Assembly: GCF_900142535.1 (NCBI RefSeq)
Contig: NZ_FRBE01000007.1
Span: forward strand, 1-64,000
From: Fibrobacter sp. UWEL
GTDB taxonomy: Bacteria > Fibrobacterota > Fibrobacteria > Fibrobacterales > Fibrobacteraceae
Length of the DNA: 64,000 bases
Direction: 5' to 3'
Each line of letters opens with the position of its first letter. Position 1 is the first letter of the stretch. The notes under the pieces were generated by a model, which saw only the letters and a list, made by a program, of their open reading frames with translations, was not told the DNA's origin and did no database searches. This document shows positions 5,510 through 63,072 of this stretch, piece by piece. The translations under genes were made by a program, and so were the position numbers.

Positions 5510-5511
5510 GA

Positions 5512-37909: not shown

Positions 37910-37928
37910 TGTGGACGTTTTATCCAAG
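37910..37928. promoter_or_regulatory. Shared palindrome, site 1 (upstream of GH5)
   Basis: TGTGGAC-GTTTT-ATCCAAG matches the consensus core GGAY-N5-RTCC. It lies 122 bp upstream of the GH5 start, just after the GH27 terminator. Confidence 0.6.
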
Positions 37929-37972
37929 AAGCGTTTCGGCACCTCGGCGATGCTCGGTGACCTTTGGGGTGC

Positions 37973-39856
37973 TTAGCGGGTAAAGACCTTGATGTGCTTA
38001 GCTCCGCTGTGGAGGCTGTTCAGGCGCTTGCCATTTACAGTGAACTTGCTCTGGGCACCTCGGCTTTGCACAGCGCCTCGGCTAGGCTCGGCGACCTTAC
38101 TGCCAATGGCGTCCTTACATTCGACGCCTCCGCAAGTTTCTGCACAATGAGATCCATCCTCTTCACAATTAGACGTTACGAAGGTGATGTAGTCAATGTC
38201 CATCCAGTCGCCAGTGACGGTGAAGCGCAAGATGTGTTCACCCTTTGTCAGATTCACAGCTGCTTGAACCTTTTGGAAATCATCGTAATTGTCTTCGCCT
38301 TCGCCCTTGGGGACTGCGATTTCTTCCGTAATATCCTTGCCATCCATAGACAGCTTGAAGCTGGAAGTTTCATTGGCGGAAGCAACTGCGGCAAACATAG
38401 TGTATTCGCCGGTTTCAGCAACGTTCACGGAGTATTCCAGCCATTCGCCAGCCTGATTGTAGCCCACCACGATCTTGCCGCCATCCTTTTCGTACAGGTC
38501 AACGCCGGTGCCCTTGCGGTAATCGGAATTGCCATGGTTTTCGGAATCCTTTTCGTTGTAGGTGGTATTGCCTGCGCCGACACCGTTAATATCGAAGTCC
38601 TCCGCTTCAATCTTGCCCGGAATAGCCCAGGCCTTACCGCCAAAGGGTTCGCGGGGAACCGGCTTGAGAATCAAGCGCAACAGCACGGAACCGTGTGCAG
38701 GAACTTCAGCAGATACGCTGGACTTTGCACCAAGATCCTTCTTCTGCCAGGCATCGCGAACTTCCACTTCGCCAGTAACGCCAATATCAGCAAAGTTGCA
38801 TTCGATGGTCTGGGGAGAAGTATTGTCGTTGAGGAGAGCCACAGCGATGTCGCCATTCTTCAAAGGCTTAGTCCAAATCTGCTTTCCATCCTTATTGGAA
38901 ATGCGATGGCCCTGAACGCCTAGGGAATCCTGGTTGATGGCAATCATATCCTTATTCAGGTAAAGGTCCTTGACCTGAGTAGACATCTTACGAACATCGG
39001 AACTGATCATGATAGGTGCGGCCATGATGGACCACATAGTCATCTGGGATTTCTGTTCTTCGTAGGTCAGCTTGCTATTGTCCACTTCGAGCATGTCCGG
39101 GTCGTTCCATTTGCCGGGCTTTGCAATTTCCCAATACTTGTTGTTGGCATCGATAATCTCGTAAATGCCGCGATACCAGGAGGTGGATCTCCATTCGGGA
39201 CCAATATCAAAAGTGGTACGCCACAGGTGAGCGATTTTCGGCATCCAGTCCTTATATTCCCAGGCGCAAATGCTGAACACGATGTCGCGTCCGGAATTGC
39301 GGAGCGCCTTGGACATACGGGTGTAATCTTCTTCCTGGTTGGAATTAGGTGCGGGGTCACAGTTATCGTACTTCAGGTAGTCTACGCCCCATTCGGCGAA
39401 CTTCTTGGCGTCCTGTTCTTCGTGCATGTAGGAGCCGTTTTCGCTGTCCCACTTGGAGTTGTAATGATGGCAGGTACGTTTACCGCGGTCGCCATAAACG
39501 CCAAACTTCAATCCCTTGGCGTGAATGTAATCGGCCAGAGCCTTCATGCCGCTGGGGAATGTAGTCGGGTGATTCTGGAGGTCACCATTGGCGTCACGCT
39601 TGGTATGCATCCAGTTGTCATCCAGATTCAGGTAGATGTAGCCCGCGTCGCGGAGACCCGAGGTCACCATTGCGTCGGCAACTTCCTTGATCTGATTTTC
39701 GTTGATGTTTTCATGGAATACGTTCCAGCTGTTCCAACCCAACGGGGGCGTAAGCACCAAACTGTCGGGATGGGCATTTGCAGTTGCTGCAAATCCGAGG
39801 GTTGCAAGTGCGGCAGCGGCGAAAACGCGGCTGGAAACGCGAGATTTCTTTGACAT
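37973..39856 (-). CDS. Secreted GH27 α-galactosidase with CBM6
   Basis: Removes α-1,6-galactose from galactomannan or galacto-oligosaccharides. The 627-aa protein has a signal peptide (1-28, 'ATANA'), a GH27 domain opening 'LTPPLGWNSWNVF' with nucleophile D in 'YLKYDNC' (about 160) and acid/base D in 'RTTFDIGPEW' (about 213), and a C-terminal antiparallel β domain. A CBM6 (about 410-560) is followed by a linker with 'VAEPSRGAVQSRGA' and the tail 'FTVNGKRL…KHIKVFTR'. The tail is close to that of the adjacent GH5 protein. AGGAG precedes the start. Confidence 0.92.
   Translation of the reverse strand: MSKKSRVSSRVFAAAALATLGFAATANAHPDSLVLTPPLGWNSWNVFHENINENQIKEVADAMVTSGLRDAGYIYLNLDDNWMHTKRDANGDLQNHPTTFPSGMKALADYIHAKGLKFGVYGDRGKRTCHHYNSKWDSENGSYMHEEQDAKKFAEWGVDYLKYDNCDPAPNSNQEEDYTRMSKALRNSGRDIVFSICAWEYKDWMPKIAHLWRTTFDIGPEWRSTSWYRGIYEIIDANNKYWEIAKPGKWNDPDMLEVDNSKLTYEEQKSQMTMWSIMAAPIMISSDVRKMSTQVKDLYLNKDMIAINQDSLGVQGHRISNKDGKQIWTKPLKNGDIAVALLNDNTSPQTIECNFADIGVTGEVEVRDAWQKKDLGAKSSVSAEVPAHGSVLLRLILKPVPREPFGGKAWAIPGKIEAEDFDINGVGAGNTTYNEKDSENHGNSDYRKGTGVDLYEKDGGKIVVGYNQAGEWLEYSVNVAETGEYTMFAAVASANETSSFKLSMDGKDITEEIAVPKGEGEDNYDDFQKVQAAVNLTKGEHILRFTVTGDWMDIDYITFVTSNCEEDGSHCAETCGGVECKDAIGSKVAEPSRGAVQSRGAQSKFTVNGKRLNSLHSGAKHIKVFTR
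38058..38097. repeat. Translated repeat elements in the GH27 linker
   Basis: Elements 'ggcacctcggctttgc' and 'gcgcctcggctaggctcggc' encode QSRGAQS and VAEPSRGA, the same family as at 36208. A third copy (37936-37965) lies just beyond the stop codon. Confidence 0.6.
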
Positions 39857-39930
39857 CTTTATACTCCTGATTTCTTTCCTCTAAAACTACCTTTTGCATT
39901 TAAAAGGTTCCAGCCCATCTTACAACCTTT

Positions 39931-39949
39931 CATTGACATATTTACAACG
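39931..39949. promoter_or_regulatory. Weak candidate palindrome upstream of GH27
   Basis: CATTGAC-ATATT-TACAACG matches the left half of the shared palindrome but not the right. It is 75 bp upstream of the GH27 start. Confidence 0.25.
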
Positions 39950-39951
39950 GC

Positions 39952-41454
39952 TTATTTTCCAACATGAACCTTCTTGAAGGTACTGCCAGAGCGGACCATG
40001 TATACGCCGGACTTCTTGACGAGAGCCTTCGCCTTATCCTGAAGTTCCATGGAATTGCTGGCGCGGAACTTGCCCAGGAATTCGCCCGACAGAGAATAAA
40101 TGCTGTACTGACGGGATGCCAGGGCGGCACCATTTAACGAACTTCCAATCACTTGCGCTTGTTCCGGTGCGGAAATCTTTTTAATGCTTACATTGTCCAG
40201 CGTCATGTTCACTGCATCGGAGCCAGCATTGAAGCTGAGGCGGCTGTTAGTATCCGTAGCGGCGGTCATCTGGAACTGGAATGTGTAAGTCTTGGCGCTG
40301 GTGCCAATATCGAAATTCTGCTTTTCCGCCAGGTAGCTAGCCCAAGGATCCTCGTGCTGTTCCACGTTCACTTCCAGCTTGCGGGCGGCAGCGGCGCTTG
40401 CGTCAAAGCTGATTTCGTACCACTGGTCTTTTTCCAGATGGAGGTTATGCTGGATCAGCTGCACGGTGTAGGGCTGAGCGCCCACTGCAGAAATATTGAA
40501 GTTGTAGGCGCCATCTTTGACCGCGCCGGTAGCGGAAGCATCACCATGGGTCTGCAAGGTCCAGGCATTTGCCGTAGAGTCAAAGCCGCCATTATAAATT
40601 TCATCGCGGTTGGTGGGTTCAACAAAAGGCGGCTCGATGGACGGATCCGCAGTAGCGCCATCCAGAGAGAAGCGCTTTACGAAATTCCAGATTTCGTCGG
40701 AGGTGTTGACGCTGGCCAAGTCCATAGAGTACCAGTGGCCCTTACCTGCAATAGTCATCAGGCGGACTTCGCTATTATCCTTACAGCCGGTCCACACTTC
40801 CAGAGAAGCCTGAGATGAGGTGCGCCCCACCGGGTACTGGGAAATCTTTTCGGACGCGCCGCAGCCTTCGTAATTTGCCCATTTTTTCACATAGTCGGCG
40901 CCACCGCTATAGCCCACCACATCATCGGTTGTTCCATGAGTGTGGATAATGGGCATCATGCGCTTGCTTGAGGCGCCGGCACCAAAAGGATATCCCGAGC
41001 AAGGGGCGATTGCCGCGATCATGTCGCCCATCTTGTTGGCAGCGTGATAACTCATCATGCCGCCCATGGAAAATCCGGAAACGTACACGCGCTTCTTGTC
41101 GATACCGTACTTGGTATTCATCTCGCTGATGATGGCCTTCAGGAAGTTCACGTCCTTATCGCCGGAAATATCCCAGGACTTATTCTCACCATTGGGAAAA
41201 ACCACCACAAAACGGGCGGTATCTGCAATTTCTTCCCACTTGGCGGCATCGTGCTGGTACTTTGCATCCTGATTCATGCCATGCATCTGGATAATCAGGG
41301 GACGATCCTTCTCGATATTAGTAGGCGCATAAACCATCATATTTCGATTGGAACCGTTAACATTCAGATTCTGAGTCTGAACAGAGGCGCAAAAGCCGCT
41401 AGTTGCGACAGCAGAAAAGACAGCAGCAGCTGTCAAAAGTTTTCTACAAAACAT
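39952..41454 (-). CDS. Secreted CE1-like carbohydrate esterase with CBM4/9-type module
   Basis: An α/β-hydrolase of the feruloyl/acetyl-xylan esterase (LpqC/PHB depolymerase-like) type, removing ester side groups from hemicellulose. After a signal peptide (1-22) come the oxyanion region 'IIQMHGMNQ', the nucleophile in GFSMGG (about 128), D in 'HGTTDDVVGY' (about 175) and H in 'GKGHWYS' (about 238). A CBM_4_9-like β-sandwich ('IYNGGFDSTANAW…MTLDNVSIKK', about 285-440) and a C-terminal 'YSLSGEFLGKF…SGVYMVRSG' domain follow. The start at 41454 is chosen for AGGAG 6 nt upstream. It is the only esterase here without CBM6. Confidence 0.85.
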   Translation of the reverse strand: MFCRKLLTAAAVFSAVATSGFCASVQTQNLNVNGSNRNMMVYAPTNIEKDRPLIIQMHGMNQDAKYQHDAAKWEEIADTARFVVVFPNGENKSWDISGDKDVNFLKAIISEMNTKYGIDKKRVYVSGFSMGGMMSYHAANKMGDMIAAIAPCSGYPFGAGASSKRMMPIIHTHGTTDDVVGYSGGADYVKKWANYEGCGASEKISQYPVGRTSSQASLEVWTGCKDNSEVRLMTIAGKGHWYSMDLASVNTSDEIWNFVKRFSLDGATADPSIEPPFVEPTNRDEIYNGGFDSTANAWTLQTHGDASATGAVKDGAYNFNISAVGAQPYTVQLIQHNLHLEKDQWYEISFDASAAAARKLEVNVEQHEDPWASYLAEKQNFDIGTSAKTYTFQFQMTAATDTNSRLSFNAGSDAVNMTLDNVSIKKISAPEQAQVIGSSLNGAALASRQYSIYSLSGEFLGKFRASNSMELQDKAKALVKKSGVYMVRSGSTFKKVHVGK

Positions 41455-41550
41455 CCCATTCTCCTTAATAATGGAACCAGACACCACTCCAGTTCCTGCT
41501 ATCCTAAAACTATACCCCGCAGGAGAAAATAAGCAAGTAATAAAGAAAAA

Positions 41551-41573
41551 CCTATGGACGAAATGTCCATAGG
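41551..41573. promoter_or_regulatory. Shared palindrome, site 2 (upstream of the CE1-like esterase)
   Basis: Perfect 9-bp arms CCTATGGAC / GTCCATAGG around a 5-nt centre GAAAT, 97 bp upstream of the start codon. Confidence 0.75.
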
Positions 41574-41640
41574 ATTCCCGAATTTGCCACTAGATCCGTC
41601 CAGATTTCTTTGAGTAGGAAGCTCCGCTTCCACTCAAACA

Positions 41641-41692
41641 AAAAAAGGCATGCTAAACAGGCAAAAGCCTGTGAAAGCATAGCCTTTTTTTC
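41641..41692. terminator. Nested bidirectional terminator after GH43 (A)
   Basis: A7-GGC…GCC-T7 enclosing ATGCT/AGCAT and ACAGGC-AAAA-GCCTGT stems. A related structure occurs at 53264-53318. Confidence 0.75.
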
Positions 41693-41739
41693 GGGGTTCC
41701 AAGGGGCAGAGCCCCTTGCGTCTTATTAACCCCCTTGCG

Positions 41740-44061
41740 TTATCTTACGTTCACCTTGTGCAGGAGACCGCCGGAGACGGGCTTCACGATGTACACGCCG
41801 TTGCTCTTGACGAACTGGCGGGTAGCATTCACGATGTCCATACCGTTGGAACGGATCATGCCCAGCATATGGCCCTTCAGGTCAAACACGCGGTAGTTCT
41901 GCACGCCACGTTCTTCAGCGAACTTGACCAGACCAATACCATCAGGATTCTGAGGATCTTCCGTCTTGATGGGAGCGGGGTCAGTAGCGTCCTTGCCTTC
42001 GGCGAAGTTGAAGTAGTCAATGTCGAACCAGTCTGCAGTTGCAGTGAATCGCAGGATGTGTTCGCCAGCGGGCAGGGTCACGTTAGCCTTTACCTTGCTG
42101 TAGTCATCAAAATTCTGGGCGGAATCGCCAGCAGCCTTATTAGCCTTAGGAACGGTAATTTCGTCGGTCAGGTCCTTGCCATCCAGAGACAGCTTGAAGC
42201 TAGAGCCGCCATCGGATGCAACTGCGGCAAACATAGTGTAATCGCCAGCCTTAGCCACGTTGATGGTGTATTCCAGCCATTCGTCCTTCTGGATATAGCC
42301 CACCACAATGCGGTCGCCGGACTTCACGTACAGATCCACCGGGGTATCCTTACGGTAGTCGCTGTCGCCCTTATTGTCGGAATCGCCATCGCTGTAAGAG
42401 GGGCCGCCCTTGCCCTTACCCGGATCGTCGAAGTCTTCTGCTTCGATCTGGCCAGGAATTGCCCACGGAGTCTGGGTTGCGTTATGAGCAGTTTGAGGAA
42501 CCGGTTCTGCAGCAGCGTTATCCAGGTAAATTTCGTCGTTTTCGTTGTCGCCCACCTTGAACCAGTCAAAGGCAGCGGTACCGCCAGCAGTCTTCTTCGC
42601 GAAGTTGAACAGGCCGAAACGGTAACCCACGAACATGCCCAAGGTGTAGGGCAACTTCAGTTCGTTACCGATCTGGGTCCAGCTGGAGCCATTAAGGCTA
42701 TAGTAGAACTTTGCTCTGTCCTTGGTAAAATCAAAGTCAATGCGGAAGTAGGCTTCGTCACCGTTAATGGCAACACTCTTGAGCTTGTATTCACGTTCGT
42801 AGTAAACCACTTCAAAGCTATTGCCGGACTTTTCGAGAGCCACAAAGCCCAGGGAGTCAGCCAAGGCAACCAAGCCAGCTACGTCACCATCCTTCATGTC
42901 CTTGCCGCTCACCAGAGTACGGCCAGAGCACTTGGGACCATAGGTACGCTGGGTCAGGGTATTCTTTGCAGTGTAGAGCTTGCTATCGGTACGGCCAGTA
43001 GTAATTCTTAACTTGCCATCCTTCAGGGCCCAATTCTTGTTATCGGGATTGTGGTTCCACTGCCATTCCAGGGGAAGTTCATCGCCATCGAAATCGTCGG
43101 AAGTCACCATGCCGTAGCCGGGATCCACTTCGTTTTCAAGGTTAAGAGTAGCAGGAGCGGCGCCGCCCACAACAGTAGGCCAGCCATCCTTCCATTCCAC
43201 TTCCATCAGGTAGGGAATACGGCCAATGCCACCGCTGTCGCGGAACAGGTAAGCATACCACTTGCCGGCATCAGTCTGGAAGATACTGCCCTGAGCCACA
43301 CCATTCTTCTGCAGGAATACCTTGCCAGAATAGCCGCCCATCAGCTTGTCGGAACGGAACACCAGTTCAGTACGGCAAGGGCCATACCAGCTAATGCCAA
43401 ACAGATAGTACTTGCCGTCCACCTTTTCCATGTGGGCGCCTTCGAGAGCAACAATGTAGCTGCTTGTACCAGAAGTTTGGTTACGCAAAGATTCGCTCAC
43501 CAATACGGTAGAGCCACCATCCGGACCAGAAAGGTCTGCTTTCAGCTTTACGATGTTCAGCTGACCACCACCATAAATCACGTAAGCGCTGCCATCATCG
43601 TCCATAAAGAAGCTGGGGTCATGATAGAACGGCAGCTGCTTTTCTACAAAGGGGCCGTTTTCAATATCGTCGGTAATATAAAGATGAGTCTTGTTGGTGG
43701 TATAAGATGGAGTCAGAATGTACCACTTGCCCTTGTGATAACGAATGGCAGAAGCCCAGGAACCCTTACCATAGGCATTTTCGCCGCCTTCAAGGTTCAT
43801 CTTGTTGTTATTGACCAAGGTCTGGTAGGCGTAATTGACGGTACGCCAGTTGGAAAGATCCGTAGACTTCATGATAGGTACGCCAGGTGCATAATGCATG
43901 GTGGTACTGACCATGTAGTAGTTGTCGCCCTCACCCTTTGCGATGCAAAGGTCCGGCACGTCGGAATAAATCCACGGATTTGAAACGGTTGCTGCGGAAG
44001 CGGCGCCAACGAATGCGGCACCCAGAACAGCGCTCTTCACAAAATTTCTAAACAATCCCAT
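41740..44061 (-). CDS. Secreted GH43 β-xylosidase/arabinofuranosidase with CBM6 (A)
   Basis: This enzyme of about 773 aa has a signal peptide (…AAFVGAASAA) and a five-bladed GH43 domain: D in 'SDVPDLCIAKG' (about 42), D in 'FYHDPSFFMDDDG' (about 150) and acid E in 'ALEGAHMEKVDG' (about 210). A GH43_C2-type β-sandwich follows (about 330-530, 'DDFDGDELPLEWQWNHNPD'), then a CBM6 (about 555-690) and the 'VFDLKGHMLGMIRS…VYIVK' tail. The subfamily looks like GH43_12, which would fit arabinofuranosidase/xylosidase action on arabinoxylan; this is inferred. The start at 44061 follows AGGAG. The shared palindrome lies 95 bp upstream. Confidence 0.88.
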   Translation of the reverse strand: MGLFRNFVKSAVLGAAFVGAASAATVSNPWIYSDVPDLCIAKGEGDNYYMVSTTMHYAPGVPIMKSTDLSNWRTVNYAYQTLVNNNKMNLEGGENAYGKGSWASAIRYHKGKWYILTPSYTTNKTHLYITDDIENGPFVEKQLPFYHDPSFFMDDDGSAYVIYGGGQLNIVKLKADLSGPDGGSTVLVSESLRNQTSGTSSYIVALEGAHMEKVDGKYYLFGISWYGPCRTELVFRSDKLMGGYSGKVFLQKNGVAQGSIFQTDAGKWYAYLFRDSGGIGRIPYLMEVEWKDGWPTVVGGAAPATLNLENEVDPGYGMVTSDDFDGDELPLEWQWNHNPDNKNWALKDGKLRITTGRTDSKLYTAKNTLTQRTYGPKCSGRTLVSGKDMKDGDVAGLVALADSLGFVALEKSGNSFEVVYYEREYKLKSVAINGDEAYFRIDFDFTKDRAKFYYSLNGSSWTQIGNELKLPYTLGMFVGYRFGLFNFAKKTAGGTAAFDWFKVGDNENDEIYLDNAAAEPVPQTAHNATQTPWAIPGQIEAEDFDDPGKGKGGPSYSDGDSDNKGDSDYRKDTPVDLYVKSGDRIVVGYIQKDEWLEYTINVAKAGDYTMFAAVASDGGSSFKLSLDGKDLTDEITVPKANKAAGDSAQNFDDYSKVKANVTLPAGEHILRFTATADWFDIDYFNFAEGKDATDPAPIKTEDPQNPDGIGLVKFAEERGVQNYRVFDLKGHMLGMIRSNGMDIVNATRQFVKSNGVYIVKPVSGGLLHKVNVR

Positions 44062-44155
44062 AAGGACTCCTTTTACAGGGTACACCACACCCCGTTTCCT
44101 TTTTCATAAAGATACCCACAAATAAGAATGACATTCTACCAATAAAAACATGTTT

Positions 44156-44174
44156 CATTGATAAAATGTCAATG
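44156..44174. promoter_or_regulatory. Shared palindrome, site 3 (upstream of GH43 A)
   Basis: CATTGAT-AAAAT-GTCAATG, arms matching at 6 of 7 positions, 95 bp upstream of the start. Confidence 0.65.
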
Positions 44175-44201
44175 GGGTGTTTGAATAAGATTTGTGTTTT
44201 G

Positions 44202-46205
44202 TTACTTGGAAACGCTCATTTTAAGCGTTTTTCCGCCTTTTTGGGACCTAAGGAGGTAAATACCGGAGCGATTTACCAGATTTGCGGTCTTGACATTCAG
44301 TTCCTGCAGGCCCTGGCCAGAAACGTGGCCCAGCAGGTTACCTTGAAGGTCGAAGACGCCGTAAGAAGTTGGACCCGTCACCTGAAGGCGAGCCAGGAAG
44401 AAATCAGGAGTAGTATCCTTAGGTTCTTCAGGGACGGTGTCCTTGGAATTTTCAACTGCAGGGAGAGCGAACTTGATCCAGTCCAGATTGATGTAGCTCT
44501 TGGTAATCTGCACTTTAAGAACGTGTTCTCCCTTGGTCAGCGGGAGTGACCCCAGCTTGAGTTCCTTATAAACATCGAAGGATTCGTCAATCTGAGCCAC
44601 GTTAATGGAGTCCAGAACCTGCTTTTCGTCTACGTACAGGATAAAGCCTGCGGTTTCCATGGCGGTAGATACGTTTGCCGTCACGTCGTACTCGCCATCG
44701 GCTTCCACATTGAAGGTGTATTCCATCCATTCACCTGCAGTAGTATAGCCCAGAGCCAAGCCTCCGTCGGCAGCCTTCACGATGTCCACGCCATCGTCGC
44801 GGTATTCTCCGCCCTTGTTCTCGTAATCGTCGTCGTGATAAGCCTTGCCTTCACCGCCTACGTCATAATTTTCAAATTCGATCTTTCCCGGGATGGAAAC
44901 GGCCTTGTCGCCATAGGGAGCCTGAGGAATAACCGGAGTGATGTAAATGCGATAGGCATTATAAACGTTCTTGATATCGATGGGAACCGTGATGGAACCG
45001 TTATTGACCGTATATTCCTTGCTGGATTCAGGCGTAGTAGAGGGGACAGCCTTGTCCTTATCTTCCCAGGTCACGTATTCCACGGATACGTCCACCTTAC
45101 TGCCCAAAAATTCCGGAATCTTGTCGATCTTGACGTCCACATTGCCCAGGGTGTTACCGCCCACCACAATGCTTGCAACCTTTTTCTTGGAATCTACGGC
45201 GGCGAAACCGTCCACGCCATCGCTCTTGTCGTTAGGGGGTGTGACCTTGGCCATGTAACCACTCATGTCACCATACCACTTATAGAGATGCCAGCCACCG
45301 CCACGTTCGTTGTTCTTGGTCAAGAGGCTTCCCAGACGACCGGGCAGCGGTACGAACCACCAGGAAATCATTGCACTTTCGACGCCATGACGTTCAAACT
45401 TGGCAATGAAGGGCACAGAAACGCCAGGGTTACCTTCCAGTTCGTGCTTGCTGTGGGAATATTCGTTAATGCTCACCTTGCGGGGAGAAATATTGTACTT
45501 CTTTTCCAGAGCGCGGTAGTTTTCCAGAGCGCCCACGAAGCCCTCGGAACCCCACTGGTGCCAGCTAATCACATCGGGAACCACATTGTTCTCGACACAA
45601 TACTTCAGGAAGCTTTCCATGCGGGAGGAATTGTAATAGGAGTAAGAAGGTCCAATGATCTTTGCATCGGGATCCAGCTGACGGAGCAGCTGATAAGTAG
45701 GCTTCCACAGGTCAGCTTCGAAGTTGTTGGAGCCCTTCCAAGTATCGTTCGGTTCGTTCCAGATTTCGTAACCGTCGAAGTTCTGGACGGCTGCGGACTT
45801 CTTGTCGTTCACCACGGAGGTGACTTCGGATTTCCAGTGATCCCAGTTCTTGTACTGGTAGGGCCAGCCGGGCAAAATATCTGCCAGACGGATCTGAACC
45901 TTACCGGTAGTGTTCTTGAGGCGGGGAGAAATGAGGAAGGCGCCACCAATACCCTGCTGGCGACCGGAACCGCTACGAGCGGGGGCCAGGAACACATTAG
46001 GGTTCAGTGGAGCCACATCGGCATCCACATTGCTGGGGAGGGTTTCGGTGAAACCGTAAAGAGAACCGGAAGCTACATGAGTTACCGGGCGAATGCTATC
46101 CCCAAGGCTTACGCTTACAGTAGTTGCCGCCATAGCGCTGTAAGGTAAGGCCATCATAAACGCCGCAGTCATCACCTGCTTCATGCGAAAAAGTTTTTCA
46201 AACAT
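44202..46205 (-). CDS. Secreted clan GH-A (GH39-like) glycosidase with CBM6
   Basis: This enzyme of about 667 aa has a signal peptide (…MALPYSAMA) and a (β/α)8 domain with acid/base E in 'YEIWNEPND' (about 148) and likely nucleophile E in 'SINEYSHS' (about 246). The pattern is GH39-like, often β-xylosidase, though GH30/GH79-like families share it. A CBM6 (about 460-590) carries 'IPGKIEFENYDVGGEGKAY'. The tail is 'VFDLQGNLLGHVSG…GIYLLRSQK'. The start at 46205 follows AAGGATGATGGG. No shared palindrome is found in the 124-bp gap upstream. It may be read through from the CE6 gene or use TTGCAA-rich sequence near 46290-46320. Confidence 0.8.
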   Translation of the reverse strand: MFEKLFRMKQVMTAAFMMALPYSAMAATTVSVSLGDSIRPVTHVASGSLYGFTETLPSNVDADVAPLNPNVFLAPARSGSGRQQGIGGAFLISPRLKNTTGKVQIRLADILPGWPYQYKNWDHWKSEVTSVVNDKKSAAVQNFDGYEIWNEPNDTWKGSNNFEADLWKPTYQLLRQLDPDAKIIGPSYSYYNSSRMESFLKYCVENNVVPDVISWHQWGSEGFVGALENYRALEKKYNISPRKVSINEYSHSKHELEGNPGVSVPFIAKFERHGVESAMISWWFVPLPGRLGSLLTKNNERGGGWHLYKWYGDMSGYMAKVTPPNDKSDGVDGFAAVDSKKKVASIVVGGNTLGNVDVKIDKIPEFLGSKVDVSVEYVTWEDKDKAVPSTTPESSKEYTVNNGSITVPIDIKNVYNAYRIYITPVIPQAPYGDKAVSIPGKIEFENYDVGGEGKAYHDDDYENKGGEYRDDGVDIVKAADGGLALGYTTAGEWMEYTFNVEADGEYDVTANVSTAMETAGFILYVDEKQVLDSINVAQIDESFDVYKELKLGSLPLTKGEHVLKVQITKSYINLDWIKFALPAVENSKDTVPEEPKDTTPDFFLARLQVTGPTSYGVFDLQGNLLGHVSGQGLQELNVKTANLVNRSGIYLLRSQKGGKTLKMSVSK

Positions 46206-46328
46206 CCCATCATCCTTTTTTCCGGACACAACATCGCGCCTGATTTCTAAAACAAAAATTACCTCCTTTTGGGAGGTAATCTTAGGGATGATTTGCAAGT
46301 AGTTTTGCAATAATTGCAAACGCCGCAA

Positions 46329-47888: not shown

Positions 47889-47966
47889 AACACACACCCT
47901 TTTATGCTTATCCCAAAACACCAGGAGTAAATCTACCCTTTTATTTGGGAAAAACAACTTTTTTCT

Positions 47967-48000
47967 AAAAAAATGGGCCCAGCCCCCCGGCCGGGTCCCT
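47967..48000 (-). terminator. GC-rich terminator after the small ORF
   Basis: Minus strand GGGACCCGGCC…GGCTGGGCCC hairpin followed by ATTTTTTT. It separates CE6 (B) plus the small ORF from CE6 (A). Confidence 0.65.
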
Positions 48001-48024
48001 CGAACTCTTTGAAATCTCCTGATA

Positions 48025-48108: not shown

Positions 48109-48123
48109 TGAGAATTCTCCTTA

Positions 48124-49731: not shown

Positions 49732-49817
49732 ACACACCTCTTTTTAATTTTCCCAGTTTTTACCATTATAAATCTATCCCATACAAGGCTAAAAATACCC
49801 AAAAAAAGCCCATGATT

Positions 49818-49836
49818 CATGGATAAAATGTCAATA
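49818..49836. promoter_or_regulatory. Shared palindrome, site 4 (upstream of CE6 B)
   Basis: CATGGAT-AAAAT-GTCAATA, 87 bp upstream of the CE6 (B) start and about 170 bp upstream of the divergent kinase-like gene. Confidence 0.65.
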
Positions 49837-50003
49837 AACGAGAATTTACAAAGGAGCGACACCCCGTTTTTTAGTAAAAAATCAGTATTTTTTCTTCAAT
49901 CGGTCCTAAATTACGCAATTTTCGCGTTATTATGTAAGTTTTTCAATAAGCGAGCATTCCAATTGGAAAACAAAAAAAGGATTTCTACTTTTCCGCCATG
50001 CAG

Positions 50004-51322: not shown

Positions 51323-51324
51323 CT

Positions 51325-53252: not shown

Positions 53253-53263
53253 CCCCCTCAGAC

Positions 53264-53384
53264 AAAAAAAGGCAAGCTAAACTGGCTAAAGCCAGTGAAG
53301 GCGCAGCTCTTTTTTGGGGGGTCCAGGGGGGCAGAGCCCCCTTGCATCTAAAAAAAGAACATCCCGATTACTCGGGATGTTCTT
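53264..53384. terminator. Two successive bidirectional hairpins after the ABC gene
   Basis: An A7-GGC…T6 nested structure with CTGGC/GCCAG (53264-53318), related to that at 41641, then a perfect 13-bp stem AAGAACATCCCGA / TCGGGATGTTCTT (53355-53384) flanked by A and T runs. Between them is a 'ggggggcagagccccc' hairpin element. They serve the convergent ABC and GH30 genes. Confidence 0.8.
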
Positions 53385-53420
53385 TTGGTATTTGGTGTTT
53401 TGGTTTATGGAAATTCTTGA

Positions 53421-55562
53421 TTACTTCACGTTCACGCGAGCAGTCATACCTTCGGACTTCACCAGGTAGGAGCCAGCATTCTTAACAAGAGCGGAAGTCT
53501 TCTTCTGGATGTCTGCAGTGCCCATGGCCTGGAATTCACCCATCAAGTTACCGTTCAGGTCAAACACGCTGTAGTTACGAACGCCAGACACGTTGAAGTT
53601 CACATTTGCAATGCTCAGGCCCGGATCCGGGTTGTTCGGCTGTTCCGTTACTTCACCCGGTTCAGGATCGGTAGCGTCCTTACCTTCGACGAAGGTAAAG
53701 TAATCCACGTCCATCCAGTCGCCAGTGACCTGGAAGCGCATAATGTGCTTGCCGGCGGTGAGGGAAACATTTCTCTGGACCTTGCCGAATTCATCGAAAT
53801 CGCCTTCGGTTGCAGTTACCGTCTTGGGAACCACGATAGTATCCGTAATGGCCTTGTTATCCATAAGCATCTGGAAGCTTGCTGTACCATTGCTGGAAGC
53901 CACGTAGGCAAACATGGTATAGTCACCAGTCTTCTTGACGTCCACGGTGTATTCCAGCCATTCGCCAGCGCGGTTGTAACCAATCACGGTGCCAAACTTC
54001 TTGTCATAAACATCGACGGGAGTATCCTTGCGGTATTCGCTCTTACCCTGGTTATCAGAATCAGTATCGTAGTAAGAAGCATTGCTGTTGCCGTTTTCGT
54101 CCTTGCCGGAGCCCGGAATGTCGAAGTCTTCGGCCTGGATCTTACCAGGAATTGCCCACGGAGTCTTAGTGTCGTTAAAGGGTTCCTGAGGAACAACCAC
54201 CTGGGGGCCAACGCCAACCAAGGTCACGATACAGTCCTTATTGGTAGCACCAGATTCCATGGTGATGGTCACGGTACCATTCTTTGCTTCCACTTCGCCT
54301 TCGTACTTGGCGTTCTTAGCTTCGGAAGTGGTATACACATGGAAGCTTTCGATGGTGGAACCAGGAACGTTAATCGTGACACTCTTGGAGTTCTTGTAAT
54401 CGCGGTTTACGAGAACCACGATAGTGCTATCGCCATCGGCACTCTTGTAAGCAGAAGCGAACAGGTTTGCCTCGGGATTAGCAGTTGCGCCTACACGCAC
54501 TGCCCCCGGGCGAACAAAGCGGGCGTACTGAGAGAGAACGTAGCCACGCTTAGAAACCTTGCCGATTTCGTTCGTAGGAATGGAAAGTTTGTTGCCGAAA
54601 TCCTTTTCCATGATCAGGCCGTAGCAACGACGGATATACCACCAGGTGTACTGGCTGAAATTGCCCACAACAAGGCCGCGGTGAATTTCGTAAGCCACGT
54701 CCATGGCGCGGACAGTATCCTTCTTTGCGGCGGTAGCCTGGTCACCGGTCACCATCACAGTACGCCAGTAGTTACCACTGCCCTGGCTTTCGGTATAGTG
54801 TTCGGTCATCCAGCGTTCCACCTTCTTCTGGTCAGCGAGAGAATACTGGAAGAAGTTATCGCCAGTAGATGCCACCATGGCGTAGAAGTGAGCACCAAGA
54901 ATATCCCAGTTCTTCAATGCGCTTGCATCATTCAGAACCTTGTCGTACATATTCTTTGCGTATGCAAAAGACTCGGTAGAAATCACCTTGGTGCCGTTCT
55001 TACGCATCTGATCGGCATAGTTCTTGGTGAAGTTGTAAATTTCGTCTGCAGACCAGCAAGCCCATTCAGAACACCAGTCCGGTTCGTTACTGATAGAAAT
55101 TGCATACAGGGGAACGCCCTGGTTCTTCATGTATGCGGAGAATTCATTCAGATGGTCCACATACTTCTGATAGTTGCTGGCGGCGATATGCTGGTTGCCA
55201 CCTGCGAATTCAGACGTCCAGGGAGTTGCATAAAGAATAAAGTCATCGCCGGCTACAGCCTTAGCAGCCTTAGCTGCGGCAACTTCCTTGTTAAAGTCAT
55301 TGGAACTTGCATACACCGGAATACGAAGGGTATTCAAGCCGATCTGGCCATCGCCGGTACCAAAGGCAAGCTTCGCATCGGCTTCGGAAAGACCGCCGCC
55401 ACCCTGCCACTGGTTATGAACCATGCCACCAAAGCCACGGATGACCTGGTGTTCTTCGCTCAAATCTACATTAACAGTTGCTGCGTTGGAGAGGCCAAAG
55501 AGGCCAGCAATCAGGCTTGCGCCCAAAACAAAGCGGCTTACGCCGTTCTTATAATCTTTCAT
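53421..55562 (-). CDS. Secreted GH30 glucuronoxylanase-like enzyme with CBM6
   Basis: This protein of about 713 aa has a signal peptide (…LFGLSNA) and a GH30 (β/α)8 domain: 'QVIRGFGGM' at the start, acid/base E in 'SISNEPDWCSEW' (about 157) and nucleophile E in 'WMTEHYTES' (about 249). The side β-sandwich follows, then a CBM6 (about 470-620). The tail is 'VFDLNGNLMGEF…GSYLVKSEG'. The pattern resembles subfamily 8, which cleaves xylan next to glucuronic acid side groups. The start at 55562 (a GTG two codons upstream is possible) follows a weak GGGATG site. The shared palindrome lies 86 bp upstream. Confidence 0.88.
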   Translation of the reverse strand: MKDYKNGVSRFVLGASLIAGLFGLSNAATVNVDLSEEHQVIRGFGGMVHNQWQGGGGLSEADAKLAFGTGDGQIGLNTLRIPVYASSNDFNKEVAAAKAAKAVAGDDFILYATPWTSEFAGGNQHIAASNYQKYVDHLNEFSAYMKNQGVPLYAISISNEPDWCSEWACWSADEIYNFTKNYADQMRKNGTKVISTESFAYAKNMYDKVLNDASALKNWDILGAHFYAMVASTGDNFFQYSLADQKKVERWMTEHYTESQGSGNYWRTVMVTGDQATAAKKDTVRAMDVAYEIHRGLVVGNFSQYTWWYIRRCYGLIMEKDFGNKLSIPTNEIGKVSKRGYVLSQYARFVRPGAVRVGATANPEANLFASAYKSADGDSTIVVLVNRDYKNSKSVTINVPGSTIESFHVYTTSEAKNAKYEGEVEAKNGTVTITMESGATNKDCIVTLVGVGPQVVVPQEPFNDTKTPWAIPGKIQAEDFDIPGSGKDENGNSNASYYDTDSDNQGKSEYRKDTPVDVYDKKFGTVIGYNRAGEWLEYTVDVKKTGDYTMFAYVASSNGTASFQMLMDNKAITDTIVVPKTVTATEGDFDEFGKVQRNVSLTAGKHIMRFQVTGDWMDVDYFTFVEGKDATDPEPGEVTEQPNNPDPGLSIANVNFNVSGVRNYSVFDLNGNLMGEFQAMGTADIQKKTSALVKNAGSYLVKSEGMTARVNVK

Positions 55563-55647
55563 AATCACATCCCATAATGGTCACCACAACCACTACTCTA
55601 AAGATATCCTCATCCAAACAAAACCGAATACTCCAACGTGGAATCGC

Positions 55648-55666
55648 CATGGACAATTTATCCACA
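55648..55666. promoter_or_regulatory. Shared palindrome, site 5 (upstream of GH30)
   Basis: CATGGAC-AATTT-ATCCACA, 86 bp upstream of the GH30 start codon. Confidence 0.7.
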
Positions 55667-55692
55667 GGTGCAGCCCGCCCGTATTAAACACA

Positions 55693-55722
55693 GAAAGCCT
55701 CCCGAGTTCTCGGGAAGCTTTC
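55693..55722 (-). terminator. Terminator of GH43 (B)
   Basis: 14-bp stem GAAAGCcTCCCGAG / CTCGGGAaGCTTTC (one mismatch pair, TT loop) about 55 bp after the GH43 stop. Confidence 0.6.
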
Positions 55723-55777
55723 CATTTGGGATGTGTTATGGAGTTTTTTTGGCCTTTTCAGCCTAAATTCGCCATTT

Positions 55778-58090: not shown

Positions 58091-58200
58091 ATGTCCATCC
58101 CATTTTTTTCTGAACGAACCCGTTCAGATTAGTTTCTACATCACACCAATCATAAATTACATCCCCCGTACAGGATTTCATATACGTTTTCAAGAGGTAA

Positions 58201-58219
58201 TATGGATTTTTTATCCATA
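58201..58219. promoter_or_regulatory. Shared palindrome, site 6 (upstream of GH43 B)
   Basis: Perfect palindrome TATGGAT-TTTTT-ATCCATA, 111 bp upstream of the start. Confidence 0.75.
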
Positions 58220-58260
58220 AGAGAAAATCCCGTATTTTTTCAAAAAACGGCCTTCTAGCA

Positions 58261-58296
58261 AAAAACGCCCTGTTCCTATTACAGAACAGAGCGTCA
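58261..58296 (-). terminator. Terminator of GH43 (C)
   Basis: Minus strand GACGCTCTGTTC…GAACAGGGCGT hairpin followed by T6. Confidence 0.75.
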
Positions 58297-58315
58297 AAGG
58301 ATTTATGGAAATTCT

Positions 58316-60589
58316 TTAGCGAATTGCACGCACCTTGGAAACCATACCGGTAGCCTTGTTACGGATCAGGTTCACACCCTGAGCCTTCTTGGCTGCGGAA
58401 GACTTCTGCCACTTCATGGTAGCTTCGGCCATGGTTGCGGCGAATACATCAGCAATCTTGTTACCCTGAATGTCAAAGACTTCGTACTGGGCCATACCCT
58501 GAGCATCAAACTTCACATTCTGGACAACAATTGCATCCTTGCCGCCCTCGAGAGTGCCGTTGGGAGCATTATCTTCGGCATTCTTACCCTTTGCCAGGTT
58601 GAAGTAGTCCAGATCGAACCAGTCTGCGGCAGCAGTAATACGGATGATATTTACGCCAGCCTTCAAGGTAACATTGGTCTTGACCTTGTTGTAGTCACTG
58701 TAGTTTTCTTCACCAGCAGTTGCTGCAGGAACGGTAACTTCGCCAGCGCTTTCACCGTTGACGGAAACCGTGAAGCTGGAGCCACCACTAGAAGCGGCTG
58801 CAACATACATGGTGTAATCACCGGCTTCGGCAGCGTTCACAGAGTATTCAAGCCATTCGCCCTTGTTGATGTAGCCAACAACAATCTGAGTATCACTCTT
58901 CTTGTAAATGTCTACGCCAGTACCATCACGATACTTGGAGCATTCAGCTTCCTTGCCGGTGTCAGTGCAGGAATGATTGTCTGCATCAGCTTCGGAATAG
59001 GAATCGTTGCCTGCGCCATAGCCCGGATCGTCAAAGTCTTCGGCCTGAATAACGCCAGGAACAGCCCAAGGAGTCTTGGTATCGTTATGAGCGGTCTGAG
59101 GTTCCGGTTCACGCTTCTGACCCTGGAATTCCCATTCCAGAAGGCCCATAGTGGAGTCCTTGGAGCCCTTGAACACGAAGAACACCTGGTCAATAACGCC
59201 AGTCAGGCCCTTCATTTCGCAATCATTGTCAGCATAGGTCTGCCAGCTGCCAGTCTTGGTCAGTTCGCAGGTACCAGCCAGAGTACCAGTTTCGCTACCC
59301 GTACGGATTTCAACCTTGTTGCCATCGCCTACGTTTGCAGCCTTGATACGGAGGTTTTCAGCACCCTTACCGAAATCAACACCAGAAATACGAATCCAGG
59401 AAGTCTTGGTGCCAAGCGGAGTCAGAACATGCTTAACGGCTTCGCCCTTGGTCCAGTCCGTACGGCTACGAATGTTACGCTGCTTGGAGCTGGTGAGAGC
59501 CTTGTAAGTTCTGAGAGCGTCAAAGTTCTTGATCTGCTTAGGTCCTTCGCGGGTGAAGGAAAGCTTGTTCATCTTGTCGCCAGACCAGGTCAGCTCATCA
59601 ATGGAAACGCTTCTGTGGTTTTCCTTGTTGGGGCTGTTGGTGCAGACACCGGCCTGAGTACAGGAACCCGGATGTTCGTCGGCAGTGACAAGACGGCGAT
59701 CATGGTACACAGCATACCACTTGCCCTTGAATTCAGCAAAGCCCTGATGGTTGTTACCACCTTCGTTATGGGCATCAGGTACAGCGGAAATACCCGGAAT
59801 CACGGTACCCACGAAAGTGTAGGGGCCAGTGATGCTATTGGAATAGCCATAGTCGATCACCTGAGGCAGAGTGTTAAAGCTCAAGTAGTAGGTGTTATCC
59901 TTCTTATGGATATAGGGAGCTTCAAAGGAACCCGGCGCCTCGATACGCTTGAGAGAGTTCTTGTCAAAGGTAATCTTGCCGTTATTGTCGGTAAACTTGA
60001 TAATATCCAGGTTGTTACCGTACTTGCGCTTGTCGTTTTCGCCACCGCCGAAAATCACGTAGCCAGTGCCGTCTTCTTCGATGAAAATACCCGGGTCGAA
60101 GCAGTGAGCGATATCGTCGCAACCGCCAATGAAGCTGGAGCCATAGTGGGCGGCAATGTAGTTCACGCCGTGAGTTTCCTTGACAGGATCCTTATAGGGG
60201 CCAGCAATATTGTCGGCAGTGATCATGCCCACGCCGCTAGCGCCGTTGGGGTAAACGATGTAAATACGGCCCTTGTGGACGGCAATACCAGAAGCCCAAG
60301 TGTTATTGGGATAATCACCAAATTCACGCTTGGAACGGAAAATCATACCGTGGTCGGTCCAGTTCTTCATATCTTCAGAAGAGAAGGCGTTCAAGCCCAC
60401 GATATCGTAATCGTAGTTCTTCTGAGGGGAATAGTCATCCACGTCGGTCAAGACATAGAAGGTATCACCATCGGAGGCCGCAGACGGGTCTGCCAGATAA
60501 TGATAGGTAGAAAGGGGATTGTCAGCCAATCCGAACGTGACAAGACCTGCAGTAAGGCAGGCGCCGCCTACTTTTTTGAAAATATTCAT
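58316..60589 (-). CDS. Secreted GH43 arabinofuranosidase/xylosidase with two CBM6-like modules (C)
   Basis: Paralogue of GH43 (B), about 757 aa, same layout: signal peptide, GH43 with 'YHYLADPSAASDGDTFYV' (D at about 33), 'HCFDPGIFIEEDGTGYV' (about 165) and 'SFEAPYIHKKDNTYYLSF' (acid E, about 221), a first CBM6-like module ('NIRSRTDWTKGEAV…LLEWEFQG'), a second CBM6 opening 'VPGVIQAEDFDDPG', and the tail 'VFDIQGNKIADVFAATMAEA'. I start at MNIFKKVGG (60589), aligned with its sister. Divergence concentrates in surface loops of the catalytic domain, suggesting different side-chain preference. The palindrome lies 95 bp upstream. Confidence 0.88.
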   Translation of the reverse strand: MNIFKKVGGACLTAGLVTFGLADNPLSTYHYLADPSAASDGDTFYVLTDVDDYSPQKNYDYDIVGLNAFSSEDMKNWTDHGMIFRSKREFGDYPNNTWASGIAVHKGRIYIVYPNGASGVGMITADNIAGPYKDPVKETHGVNYIAAHYGSSFIGGCDDIAHCFDPGIFIEEDGTGYVIFGGGENDKRKYGNNLDIIKFTDNNGKITFDKNSLKRIEAPGSFEAPYIHKKDNTYYLSFNTLPQVIDYGYSNSITGPYTFVGTVIPGISAVPDAHNEGGNNHQGFAEFKGKWYAVYHDRRLVTADEHPGSCTQAGVCTNSPNKENHRSVSIDELTWSGDKMNKLSFTREGPKQIKNFDALRTYKALTSSKQRNIRSRTDWTKGEAVKHVLTPLGTKTSWIRISGVDFGKGAENLRIKAANVGDGNKVEIRTGSETGTLAGTCELTKTGSWQTYADNDCEMKGLTGVIDQVFFVFKGSKDSTMGLLEWEFQGQKREPEPQTAHNDTKTPWAVPGVIQAEDFDDPGYGAGNDSYSEADADNHSCTDTGKEAECSKYRDGTGVDIYKKSDTQIVVGYINKGEWLEYSVNAAEAGDYTMYVAAASSGGSSFTVSVNGESAGEVTVPAATAGEENYSDYNKVKTNVTLKAGVNIIRITAAADWFDLDYFNLAKGKNAEDNAPNGTLEGGKDAIVVQNVKFDAQGMAQYEVFDIQGNKIADVFAATMAEATMKWQKSSAAKKAQGVNLIRNKATGMVSKVRAIR

Positions 60590-60683
60590 AAAAAACACAT
60601 CACTCAAATAAGACGGCCCATTCCGCCTCATTTACAAATTTAACCCCCAACCCCCTCATTTCATACCACCATAAAAAAAGTCC

Positions 60684-60702
60684 CATGGACAAAATATCCA
60701 CA
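60684..60702. promoter_or_regulatory. Shared palindrome, site 7 (upstream of GH43 C)
   Basis: CATGGAC-AAAAT-ATCCACA, 95 bp upstream of the start codon. Confidence 0.7.
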
Positions 60703-60740
60703 GGACGTTTCCAAAAATTTAAATAATAAGGCATCCATTT

Positions 60741-60805
60741 TGAGGAGGCGGAGCCCCTTGCGTCTCATAACGTTTGGGAAAGGGGTCTAGGGGGCAGCGC
60801 CCCCT
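60741..60805. repeat. GC-rich 'ggggcagagccccttgcgtct' repeat element
   Basis: Two partial copies ('gaggcggagccccttgcgtct' and 'agggggcagcgccccctacatct') related to 41693-41725 and 53317-53348. The strong GC hairpin may terminate the lipoprotein gene. Confidence 0.55.
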
Positions 60806-60810
60806 ACATC

Positions 60811-62106
60811 TCACAACGGTCGGTCGAAGCCGTCAACTCCATAGAATTCGATGTCGTCGATCCAAATCTCATTGGAACCGCCACCACCAAAGATATTGAA
60901 GTTGGTAACGTGATCCTTCACGGCGTTCCATCCCAGGTTACCACCGTTAGTATCGGTAGAATCCCTGAAGTCAGCCGGAGTAACCACATAACGCTTCCAC
61001 TTGTTATTCACTCGGACATGTGCCCAGGCCTTACCATCGATCAGTCCGGCGGCAGTATCCTGAACGTCCAGCAGAACATCCATAGAGACGCTAATCCACT
61101 GGGTGGTATCGTTATCGGCAGTACCGCGAGCCCACAGCACGATAGAATCCAAATCCGTAAAGTTCTGCGTTTCGGCGAAGGCGTAACCCATAAGAGCCCA
61201 GTTGTAAAGGGAGTCGTTGGTGTAGACAAAGTGAGCCACCTTGCCATCGCGACCCTCGCCTGCATCGCTAACAGAAAGTTCTGCGTCAGCATACCTAGCG
61301 TAGTTCTTATACCAGGAGCCTACACCATTTTCGAAGTTTTCGAACAGGTAATCAGGGTACTTAACAGTAGCGGTATCCACCGGAGCGGTGCCAATTGCAA
61401 TGTCAGTCGTTTCCTTATCGGACTTCACCTTAGTAGAAACAAAACCGATATCCTGCTTAGCCTTGCTATTGTCGCTTTCATCGCCCATGTTGGAGACCTT
61501 GCCTCTCAAGGCGAAGCTAACCACATTGAAGGTTCCTTCGGGCAGGGATTCAAAGGTAAACTTACCCAAGGAGTCAGTTTGAACAACGTAATCCACACCC
61601 TGGACCACAACACTTGCGCTTCGAATACCATTGGGCAGGTAAACCTGACCAGATACAGCACCTGGAGCAGCAAGCTTCACTTCCATGGAGTACACGGAGT
61701 CGTCTTCGGTAATGGAAAGGCGGGAAACAGCCTTGTCAGATTCGCCACGAGTTTCCACCATATAACTGGTGGGCTTCATTTTCGCCTTGATAACGGCCTG
61801 ACCCAGACTGTCAGTTACAACGTTGAAGATACCAGCAGTGGTATCCATAGCGCCAACAGGAGATTCTCCCTCGTTGACATAAGATTCATCAGTATCACGT
61901 TCGACGTAGCCAGCCAGATAATCTACACGGCGGACCAGCACTCGAGCATTGGCTGCAGGAGACCCGTCCTGATTCAGAACGGTAAGTGCAATATCATTTT
62001 CTGTCTCGAAGGTCGTACCGGCAGTGTTCGTCGAACACGCCAGCATGGCAACGCCCAGAGCGGACGCCACCACGACAGATCCAATTTTCCACACCCGTTT
62101 CATCAT
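60811..62106 (-). CDS. Lipoprotein with regulatory-like and jelly-roll domains
   Basis: This 431-aa protein has a lipoprotein signal (lipobox MLAC, Cys at about 24). A first carboxypeptidase-regulatory-like β domain (about 38-130) precedes a second ('GAVSGQVYLPNGIRSASVVV', about 150-205). A C-terminal galactose-binding/CBM-like jelly roll (about 255-431) includes 'DYLFENFENGVGSWYKNYAR' and ends 'NIFGGGGSNEIWIDDIEFYG'. It is probably an outer-membrane-anchored glycan-binding protein. Twin ATGs (62106, 62103) follow AGGAG and overlap the regulator's stop, so it is cotranslated with the TIGR02147 gene. Confidence 0.78.
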   Translation of the reverse strand: MMKRVWKIGSVVVASALGVAMLACSTNTAGTTFETENDIALTVLNQDGSPAANARVLVRRVDYLAGYVERDTDESYVNEGESPVGAMDTTAGIFNVVTDSLGQAVIKAKMKPTSYMVETRGESDKAVSRLSITEDDSVYSMEVKLAAPGAVSGQVYLPNGIRSASVVVQGVDYVVQTDSLGKFTFESLPEGTFNVVSFALRGKVSNMGDESDNSKAKQDIGFVSTKVKSDKETTDIAIGTAPVDTATVKYPDYLFENFENGVGSWYKNYARYADAELSVSDAGEGRDGKVAHFVYTNDSLYNWALMGYAFAETQNFTDLDSIVLWARGTADNDTTQWISVSMDVLLDVQDTAAGLIDGKAWAHVRVNNKWKRYVVTPADFRDSTDTNGGNLGWNAVKDHVTNFNIFGGGGSNEIWIDDIEFYGVDGFDRPL

Positions 62107-62966
62107 TTCGTCTCCTTTACGCCAGCCTCCGTCTTATCGGCAGATCCCACGCCACCCTTGCGGGCAACCGGGAAGAAGGCCATGGAGAGTTGCATAACCC
62201 TATCGGTATTCTTAGCGCTATCAACTCGCTTTTGCACCAGACGGCGGAATTCTCTCAGCATATCGCGGAGATCATCGAAGCATGCCTGGTCGACGGACAG
62301 GGTAAGAGTAGAAATATTTCTTTCTTCCGGAGGGAGCTCGTCAATGGAATCGCTGGCCAAAGAGAGTATCTGCTTCTGGAATTTACCAATAGCAGCACGT
62401 TTTTCGGGCCCACCTACGGTAAGGTGAGCTTCGGTCAAGGCAAGACGGCCAGAAGCCATCTTCTTGACAAGGCCCACTTCTAACAAAGTATCGATAGCTT
62501 CCTGGGCCTGAGCCTCGGTAATGGGCGGGCAGATTTCGCGGGCGATCTGCTTGATGTTCACGATACCGCCGTTCAAGTCCAGATAGGCTCGAACTGCGGG
62601 AATCCACCAGTTTTCCAGGAGCTTAAGTTCTGCGGCCTGCAGGCTGTGACGATCCACGTCACGGAGGGCAAGAGCCTTAGCCATGATTTCTTCGCGCTTG
62701 TTCTTATCCTTAGTAACAGCGGCGGAGAACAGCAAGTCGAAATATTCGGCTTCACGACCAGAAAGGGCCAAGATGTCCTTGGCGGCCGGAAGGGCATGGG
62801 CGGGGAGGTGCTGCTTCTTCTGGAGCACACGGTAGAGGTAGCTGGAATCCAAGCCCAGCTTGTCGCCCATCATGCGATAACTATAGAAAGGCATCTCGAC
62901 TTTTTTACGGTCGTAGTAGTCCTTCAAGAAGTCGCGATAGTCCGCAATGTCAGAGAAAGTAACCAT
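62103..62966 (-). CDS. TIGR02147-family protein, putative regulator
   Basis: This 287-aa protein matches the TIGR02147 family, a lineage-expanded group in Fibrobacter. The N-terminus 'DIADYRDFLKDYYDRKK' is followed by a helix-turn-helix-like 'MMGDKLGLDSSYLYRVLQKK' (about 32-51), 'LSGREAEYFDLLFSAAVTKD' (about 70-89), a winged-helix-like middle (about 135-185) and the C-terminal 'NISTLTLSVDQACFDDLRDM' (about 222-241). DNA binding is predicted from the motif, not demonstrated for this family. It overlaps the downstream lipoprotein gene. One copy of the shared palindrome lies 88 bp upstream of its start, suggesting it belongs to, or controls, the CAZyme regulon. Confidence 0.82.
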   Translation of the reverse strand: MVTFSDIADYRDFLKDYYDRKKVEMPFYSYRMMGDKLGLDSSYLYRVLQKKQHLPAHALPAAKDILALSGREAEYFDLLFSAAVTKDKNKREEIMAKALALRDVDRHSLQAAELKLLENWWIPAVRAYLDLNGGIVNIKQIAREICPPITEAQAQEAIDTLLEVGLVKKMASGRLALTEAHLTVGGPEKRAAIGKFQKQILSLASDSIDELPPEERNISTLTLSVDQACFDDLRDMLREFRRLVQKRVDSAKNTDRVMQLSMAFFPVARKGGVGSADKTEAGVKETK

Positions 62967-63053
62967 AATTTTCTTCTTCTTTCGTTGTTATATCTTTACA
63001 AACAATAAGATAGACTATGCGGACCTTAAAAAATACAGCGTAAGACAAATCAT

Positions 63054-63072
63054 CATGGACATTTTGTCAAAG
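63054..63072. promoter_or_regulatory. Shared palindrome, site 8 (upstream of the TIGR02147 gene)
   Basis: CATGGAC-ATTTT-GTCAAAG, arms partly degenerate on the right, 88 bp upstream of the regulator's start codon. The 62967-63243 gap has no other feature I can name. Confidence 0.6.

Follow-up and report, generated by a model that had tools for sequence, protein, structure and literature searches.

The window, which is the whole 64,000-nt stretch of Fibrobacter sp. UWEL DNA that was analysed, contains a series of hemicellulase and esterase genes together with a TIGR02147-family gene and a lipoprotein gene that overlap by 4 bases. Upstream of many of these genes lies a palindromic site, followed by a -10-like box. 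The features are listed below ("site" stands for a putative binding site of the candidate regulator; the spacer is the number of nucleotides between site and box; target genes marked Pfam were assigned with it).

37910..37928, minus strand: site CTTGGATAAAACGTCCACA in the GH5-CBM6 promoter (Pfam); TATCTTTA box at 37861-37868, spacer 41
39931..39949, minus strand: degenerate weak site CGTTGTAAATATGTCAATG in the alpha-galactosidase (GH27)-CBM6 promoter (composite pattern; Pfam); TAGTTTTA box at 39882-39889, spacer 41
41553..41571, minus strand: site, perfect palindrome, in the esterase-CBM4_9 promoter (Pfam); TAGTTTTA box at 41505-41512, spacer 40
44156..44174, minus strand: site in the GH43-CBM6 promoter (Pfam); TATCTTTA box at 44107-44114, spacer 41
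46304..46320, minus strand: another palindrome, TTTGCAATTATTGCAAA (the operator type of paralogue C34/L092), in the GH39-CBM6 promoter; TAATTTTT box from 46261 downward, spacer about 41
49818..49836, minus strand: site in the CE6-CBM6 promoter (Pfam); TAGATTTA box at 49769-49776, spacer 41; a further box has a spacer of 20
55648..55666, minus strand: site in the GH30-CBM6 promoter (Pfam); TATCTTTA box at 55599-55606, spacer 41
58201..58219, minus strand: site, perfect palindrome with 7-bp arms, in a GH43-CBM6 promoter (Pfam); TAATTTAT box at 58152-58159, spacer 41
60684..60702, minus strand: site in the second GH43-CBM6 promoter (Pfam); TAAATTTG box at 60635-60642, spacer 41
60811..62106, minus strand: partner lipoprotein gene, with a 4-base overlap with the regulator gene; Cys24, ETEN motif, transthyretin/Ig-like domain and predicted CBM11-like C-terminal domain
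62103..62966, minus strand: candidate regulator gene, TIGR02147 family; predicted XRE-like helix-turn-helix (HTH) at about residues 10-65, DUF4423 with a predicted winged helix at about 121-180
63054..63072, minus strand: site before the TIGR02147 gene (proposed autoregulation); TATCTTAT box at 63005-63012, spacer 41

All eight palindromic sites claimed in a preliminary description of this DNA were found in the window. The two that it gave as perfect palindromes, at 41551 (9-bp arms) and 58201 (7-bp arms), were borne out, with one correction of position: the 9-bp arms do span 41551-41573, while the 19-mer itself occupies 41553-41571. With the pattern of that description and at most 2 mismatches there are 9 matches in the window, against a mean of 2.0 and a maximum of 7 in shuffled sequences (9 or more in 0 of 100 shuffles). 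The ninth match, at 53847, is intragenic. The refined 19-bp consensus, CATGGAYAWWWTRTCCATG, has 11 matches with at most 2 mismatches in the 3.53-Mb genome and 29 with at most 3, compared with 0 and 1 for a reversed-pattern control. About 9 of the 29 are intragenic and were treated as background, and none of the 11 closer matches is. These 11 are all intergenic, and what follows them is in nearly every case a CBM6 hemicellulase gene, an esterase gene or that of the regulator. The condition that would have refuted the motif, an equal frequency in coding DNA or before unrelated genes, thus did not hold. Across 111 Fibrobacteraceae genomes the good pattern gave 432 matches (36 in the control).

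The genes behind the sites in this genome encode GH5, GH43 (four), CE6 (two), GH30, GH141, GH2, GH95 and two GH10 enzymes, nearly all with CBM6, as well as several secreted esterases. CBM6 occurs in about 14 of the 20 site-bearing genes, a list that takes in the degenerate alpha-galactosidase site, and there are approximately 30 CBM6 genes genome-wide. In other genomes, 26 of 46 proteins downstream of sites carry CBM6 and 20 of 46 are GH10. In F. succinogenes S85, RNA-seq placed CBM6, CE6, GH10 and GH30 in one co-expression cluster and CBM6, GH27, GH43, GH95 and GH141 in another (PMC6204037), which speaks independently for the regulon. The idea that a shared palindrome marks a single CAZyme regulon is supported. 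Judged from sequence, the palindrome is almost certainly a real protein-binding site with a regulon of its own.

Two outlying sites were also recorded. A good 2-mismatch site at C1:336865 (L025:6866-6884), located where a gene ends and a convergent one follows, lacks a box at 41 nt, a tRNA and any obvious target; it counts against the regulon reading. A 3-mismatch site precedes phosphoglucose isomerase (C11:84293; L036:4794), the sole candidate target in central metabolism and a weak one.

The preliminary description had the sites at a constant distance from the start codon. This did not hold, as with the start codons used here the gaps range from 52 to 127 nt. The rigid distance is instead to a promoter box: a TAnnTTW -10-like box follows 40-41 nt after the site in all 8 of the window sites, and a TANNTTW box at 40-42 nt in 50 of 62 non-redundant sites across the family. 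After a 70%-identity filter had left these 62 promoters, the strict form TAnnTTTR stood exactly 41 nt past the site in 23 of them, a lower bound for the box in view of the looser count. Bins 40 and 42 held 3 and 1, other bins at most 2, and bins on the upstream side at most 1. The result is not circular because the sites were picked by the palindrome alone. A binomial P of about 1e-47 after correction is only rough because homologous promoters persist after the filter. The first T of the TAnnTTW box comes 51 nt after the dyad centre, and in the aligned information profile the palindrome and RR..TA..TTW are the only conserved elements.

No conserved -35 element appears in the aligned profile of the site-bearing promoters. 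TTGACA within 1 mismatch at 16-18 nt was found in 0 of 50 of them, yet in just 2 of 30 control promoters, and the missing -35 does not discriminate because control promoters rarely have one. The box resembles the TAnnTTTG -7 box of Bacteroidota. Of 83 other upstream regions, 30 contain TANNTTTR, compared with about 10% of shuffled ones, and the box looks like a general promoter element here.

With a -10 box downstream of it, the palindrome would lie outside the mRNA. Terminators or 5' leader hairpins, which can be inverted repeats, would fit those sites that stand between consecutive same-strand genes. Conservation in the palindrome nevertheless concerns specific bases (the information profile peaks at GA..TC) and not just pairing, the loop is AT-only with no T-tract, and some sites (49818, 63054) stand between divergently oriented genes. 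The RNA-level reading was rejected on position and sequence conservation and is extremely improbable.

Counted from the box, the dyad would stand some 62 nt before the inferred start of transcription, where class I activators bind (-61.5 in the case of E. coli CRP). The rigid distance to the promoter box puts the dyad near -62 and speaks for an activator. By analogy, the layout points to class I activator geometry and not to that of a steric repressor. A repressor operator, bound by the TIGR02147 protein or another one and blocking transcription until an inducer comes, is unlikely. XRE-like palindromic operators are often repressor sites, repressors commonly autoregulate, and TGTATCAT-type arms surround the -35 in promoters that belong to other TIGR02147 paralogues, a repressor-like layout. 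The present site, however, never overlaps the -10 box or the inferred start; it is held 40-41 nt from the box (51 nt from dyad to T), and a simple steric block would not call for so strict a phasing ahead of the -35 region. Activation rather than repression is highly probable. Of the earlier proposal of an operator for a dimeric regulator, the symmetric, dimer-type site is retained; an operator at constant start-codon distance is not.

The protein encoded at 62103-62966 is a clear member of the TIGR02147/DUF4423 family. It scores 195 bits against TIGR02147 (NCBIfam; cut-off 50), covering model positions 8-271 of 272, and 102.6 bits against DUF4423 (PF14394; Pfam cut-off 30). Its AlphaFold model (mean pLDDT 82.5) has N-terminal helices at 10-24, 30-37, 41-48 and 56-65, which form a four-helix HTH, and a winged-helix-like segment within DUF4423. 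Structure and sequence matches to XRE (CI, C.AhdI, HigA) and MarR proteins are weak, and Foldseek with the whole regulator gave no match with an E value below 0.1. Membership of the CRP/FNR family, which would call for a cNMP-binding domain and a winged HTH, was rejected: Pfam gives DUF4423 alone and the N-terminus is predicted to be all-helical.

The preliminary description treated the TIGR02147 gene as a mere target. The site upstream of it was confirmed, and the gene is now also the best candidate for the regulator. With E values up to 1e-90, orthologues were found in 91 of the 111 family genomes. All 55 named orthologues, including that of Fibrobacter intestinalis ATCC 43854, have the site 53-100 nt upstream (53 with at most 4 mismatches and two with 5; shuffled minimum 6). 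The box stands at 41 nt before 46 of these 55, and mostly at 40 before the rest. Nine more distant orthologues (53-79% identity) have the site with at most 4 mismatches, and in another family a protein with 49% identity is preceded by a weak palindrome (5 mismatches). This genome has 22 TIGR02147 matches, one of them a fragment (21 full-length; the "Fsuc_second" paralogue family), and the main site was found upstream of 0 of 20 other paralogues. These upstream sequences suggest that the TIGR02147 protein very probably is the regulator that reads the palindrome.

A conserved upstream site marks a target and does not by itself identify the binder. Other regulators are numerous in the genome, among them a CHASE-domain sensor and, like it adjoining the cluster, a histidine kinase-response regulator, and one of them could bind the motif, the TIGR02147 gene being only one more target. 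That the site precedes every family orthologue tested and none of the 20 paralogues makes this improbable, as do two same-clade paralogues with palindromes of their own at the same offset, as if each protein read its own. The number of motifs also tracks the presence of the orthologue: the 91 genomes with it have 407 sites (28 in the control; mean 4.5), and the 20 without it have 25 (8 in the control; mean 1.3). This co-occurrence is weakened because the pattern is phylogenetically clumped, most orthologue-less genomes belonging to one genus, and because these genomes also appear to be without the GH10-CBM6 subtype; loss of the whole regulon is an alternative reading of it.

The genes of the CHASE-domain sensor and the histidine kinase-response regulator (window 63244-63999 and L035:114-1763) are divergent from the regulator operon.

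In all 82 testable regulator loci, some of which are the same genome counted twice, the gene that follows, in most cases overlapping by 4 bases, encodes a lipoprotein 376-462 aa long. The lipobox cysteine (Cys24) and an ETEN motif are invariant across these partners. The predicted structure (pLDDT 80.8) consists of a transthyretin/Ig-like domain and a C-terminal beta-sandwich, and the latter matches CBM11 in Foldseek (1v0a; E 2.7e-8, TM(target) 0.73, 15% identity). Pfam gave no CBM match for the lipoprotein in the window. On this model, the partner is predicted to be a carbohydrate-binding (CBM11-like) surface lipoprotein.

Taken as a whole, the palindrome is probably the site of a dimeric TIGR02147/DUF4423 activator that drives a xylan-degradation regulon in class I fashion. 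The dimer would bind the 19-bp palindrome directly, with the dyad 51 nt before the first T of the TAnnTTW -10 box, and would contact RNA polymerase as a class I activator, recruiting it to promoters that have no conserved -35. It would turn on its own operon as well as genes for GH10, GH43, GH30, CE6, GH2, GH95 and GH141 enzymes (mostly with CBM6) and esterases. The co-transcribed lipoprotein would be the likely partner in sensing or capturing polysaccharide. The computations themselves show the site, its spacing, the content of the regulon, the conserved site before the regulator gene, the co-occurrence and the operon pairing; direct binding, activation, the transcription start, dimerisation and the signal are inferences.

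Class I promoters such as those of E. coli CRP share with the Fibrobacter sites a palindrome about five helical turns before the -10 and rigid spacing. A weak or absent -35 is a class I trait too, one that in Fibrobacter the control promoters mostly show as well. As in class I promoters, the dyad keeps a constant, helically phased spacing to the -10 and sits farther upstream than the -35 region. Unlike CRP, the Fibrobacter protein has a predicted XRE-like HTH and DUF4423, a 19-bp site with an odd centre (TGGAY-N5-RTCCA) and a TAnnTTW box, and its contact with polymerase is presumed. Among the papers searched, none that names TIGR02147 or deals with its function was found (one paper mentions DUF4423 in passing), nor any literature linking Fibrobacter with TIGR02147, with TAnnTTTG, or with a hemicellulase operator or activator. 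No described counterpart of the palindrome was found in these searches, in line with the preliminary description, which knew of no operator of this sequence in Fibrobacter.

Fibrobacter is a major fibre degrader of the rumen and gut, and the transcriptional control of its cellulase genes, and of its plant-cell-wall enzymes, has been stated to be an unanswered question (PMC3079729). The hemicellulase cluster Fisuc_1762-1804 of F. succinogenes S85 has a similar content of CBM6 GH10, GH43, GH2 and esterase genes, and two response regulators were suggested for it (PMC3079729); the present data favour TIGR02147 over these. The outcome is a named candidate regulator with its site, a gene list and a directly testable promoter rule. 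For one protein of TIGR02147/DUF4423 this amounts to a proposed binding site and regulon, the first function proposed for a family that has about 20 copies in the genome and is paired with a predicted carbohydrate-binding lipoprotein.

This genome has 21 full-length TIGR02147 genes, and in most cases a related lipoprotein gene comes next. Each of the two same-clade paralogues has a palindrome of its own, again 51 nt from the box. That of C34 (L092) is TTTGCAA-N3-TTGCAAA; with at most 1 mismatch, and with a box 41 nt on, it precedes four promoters in this genome, namely those of its own gene, the GH39-CBM6 gene in the window, a GH127 and a GH43-CBM6. The GH39-CBM6 gene (44202-46205) is without the main site, and therefore a cluster gene that lacks it has the second type. 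The C34/L092 palindrome is kept at orthologues of at least 89% identity and drifts at about 77%, and this pair is less secure because of that drift. The palindrome of C6 (L087) is TGTTGAAA-N3-TTTCAACG, and no second good target for it was found in the genome.

Several paralogous pairs per genome are also described for RsgI/SigI of Clostridium thermocellum, whose extracellular partner has a carbohydrate-binding domain (PMC4711584, PMC12203970). The TIGR02147 pairs likewise come several to a genome, and the partner has a (here predicted) carbohydrate-binding domain. RsgI, however, is a transmembrane anti-sigma factor acting on a sigma factor, whereas in Fibrobacter a lipoprotein that shows no clear membrane span accompanies a predicted DNA-binding activator. 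RsgI family membership was rejected for the partner, a lipoprotein (invariant Cys24) next to a TIGR02147 gene. Tentatively, TIGR02147 proteins and their ETEN lipoproteins may be regulator pairs that sense polysaccharides, some 20 to a genome and together a large family specific to the lineage, in which each activator would read its own palindrome at the 51-nt offset and the surface lipoprotein would inform a cytoplasmic activator with no transmembrane link.

Upstream of other TIGR02147 genes (L076, L077, L079, L080 and L082), repeated TGTATCAT / ATGATACA arms were observed, which in some cases flank a TTGAC -35-like hexamer. These are possible operators, in a repressor-like layout, of another TIGR02147 subgroup. 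About 4 kb beyond the first, at L035:2975-6971, a TIGR02147 gene, its lipoprotein gene and a GH5 gene stand in a row, possibly another regulator-target unit. At the other end of the window, PADLOC reported matches to the JetD, JetC and JetA models of Wadjet type I (1053-7468) and further defence-candidate matches (7566-17947).
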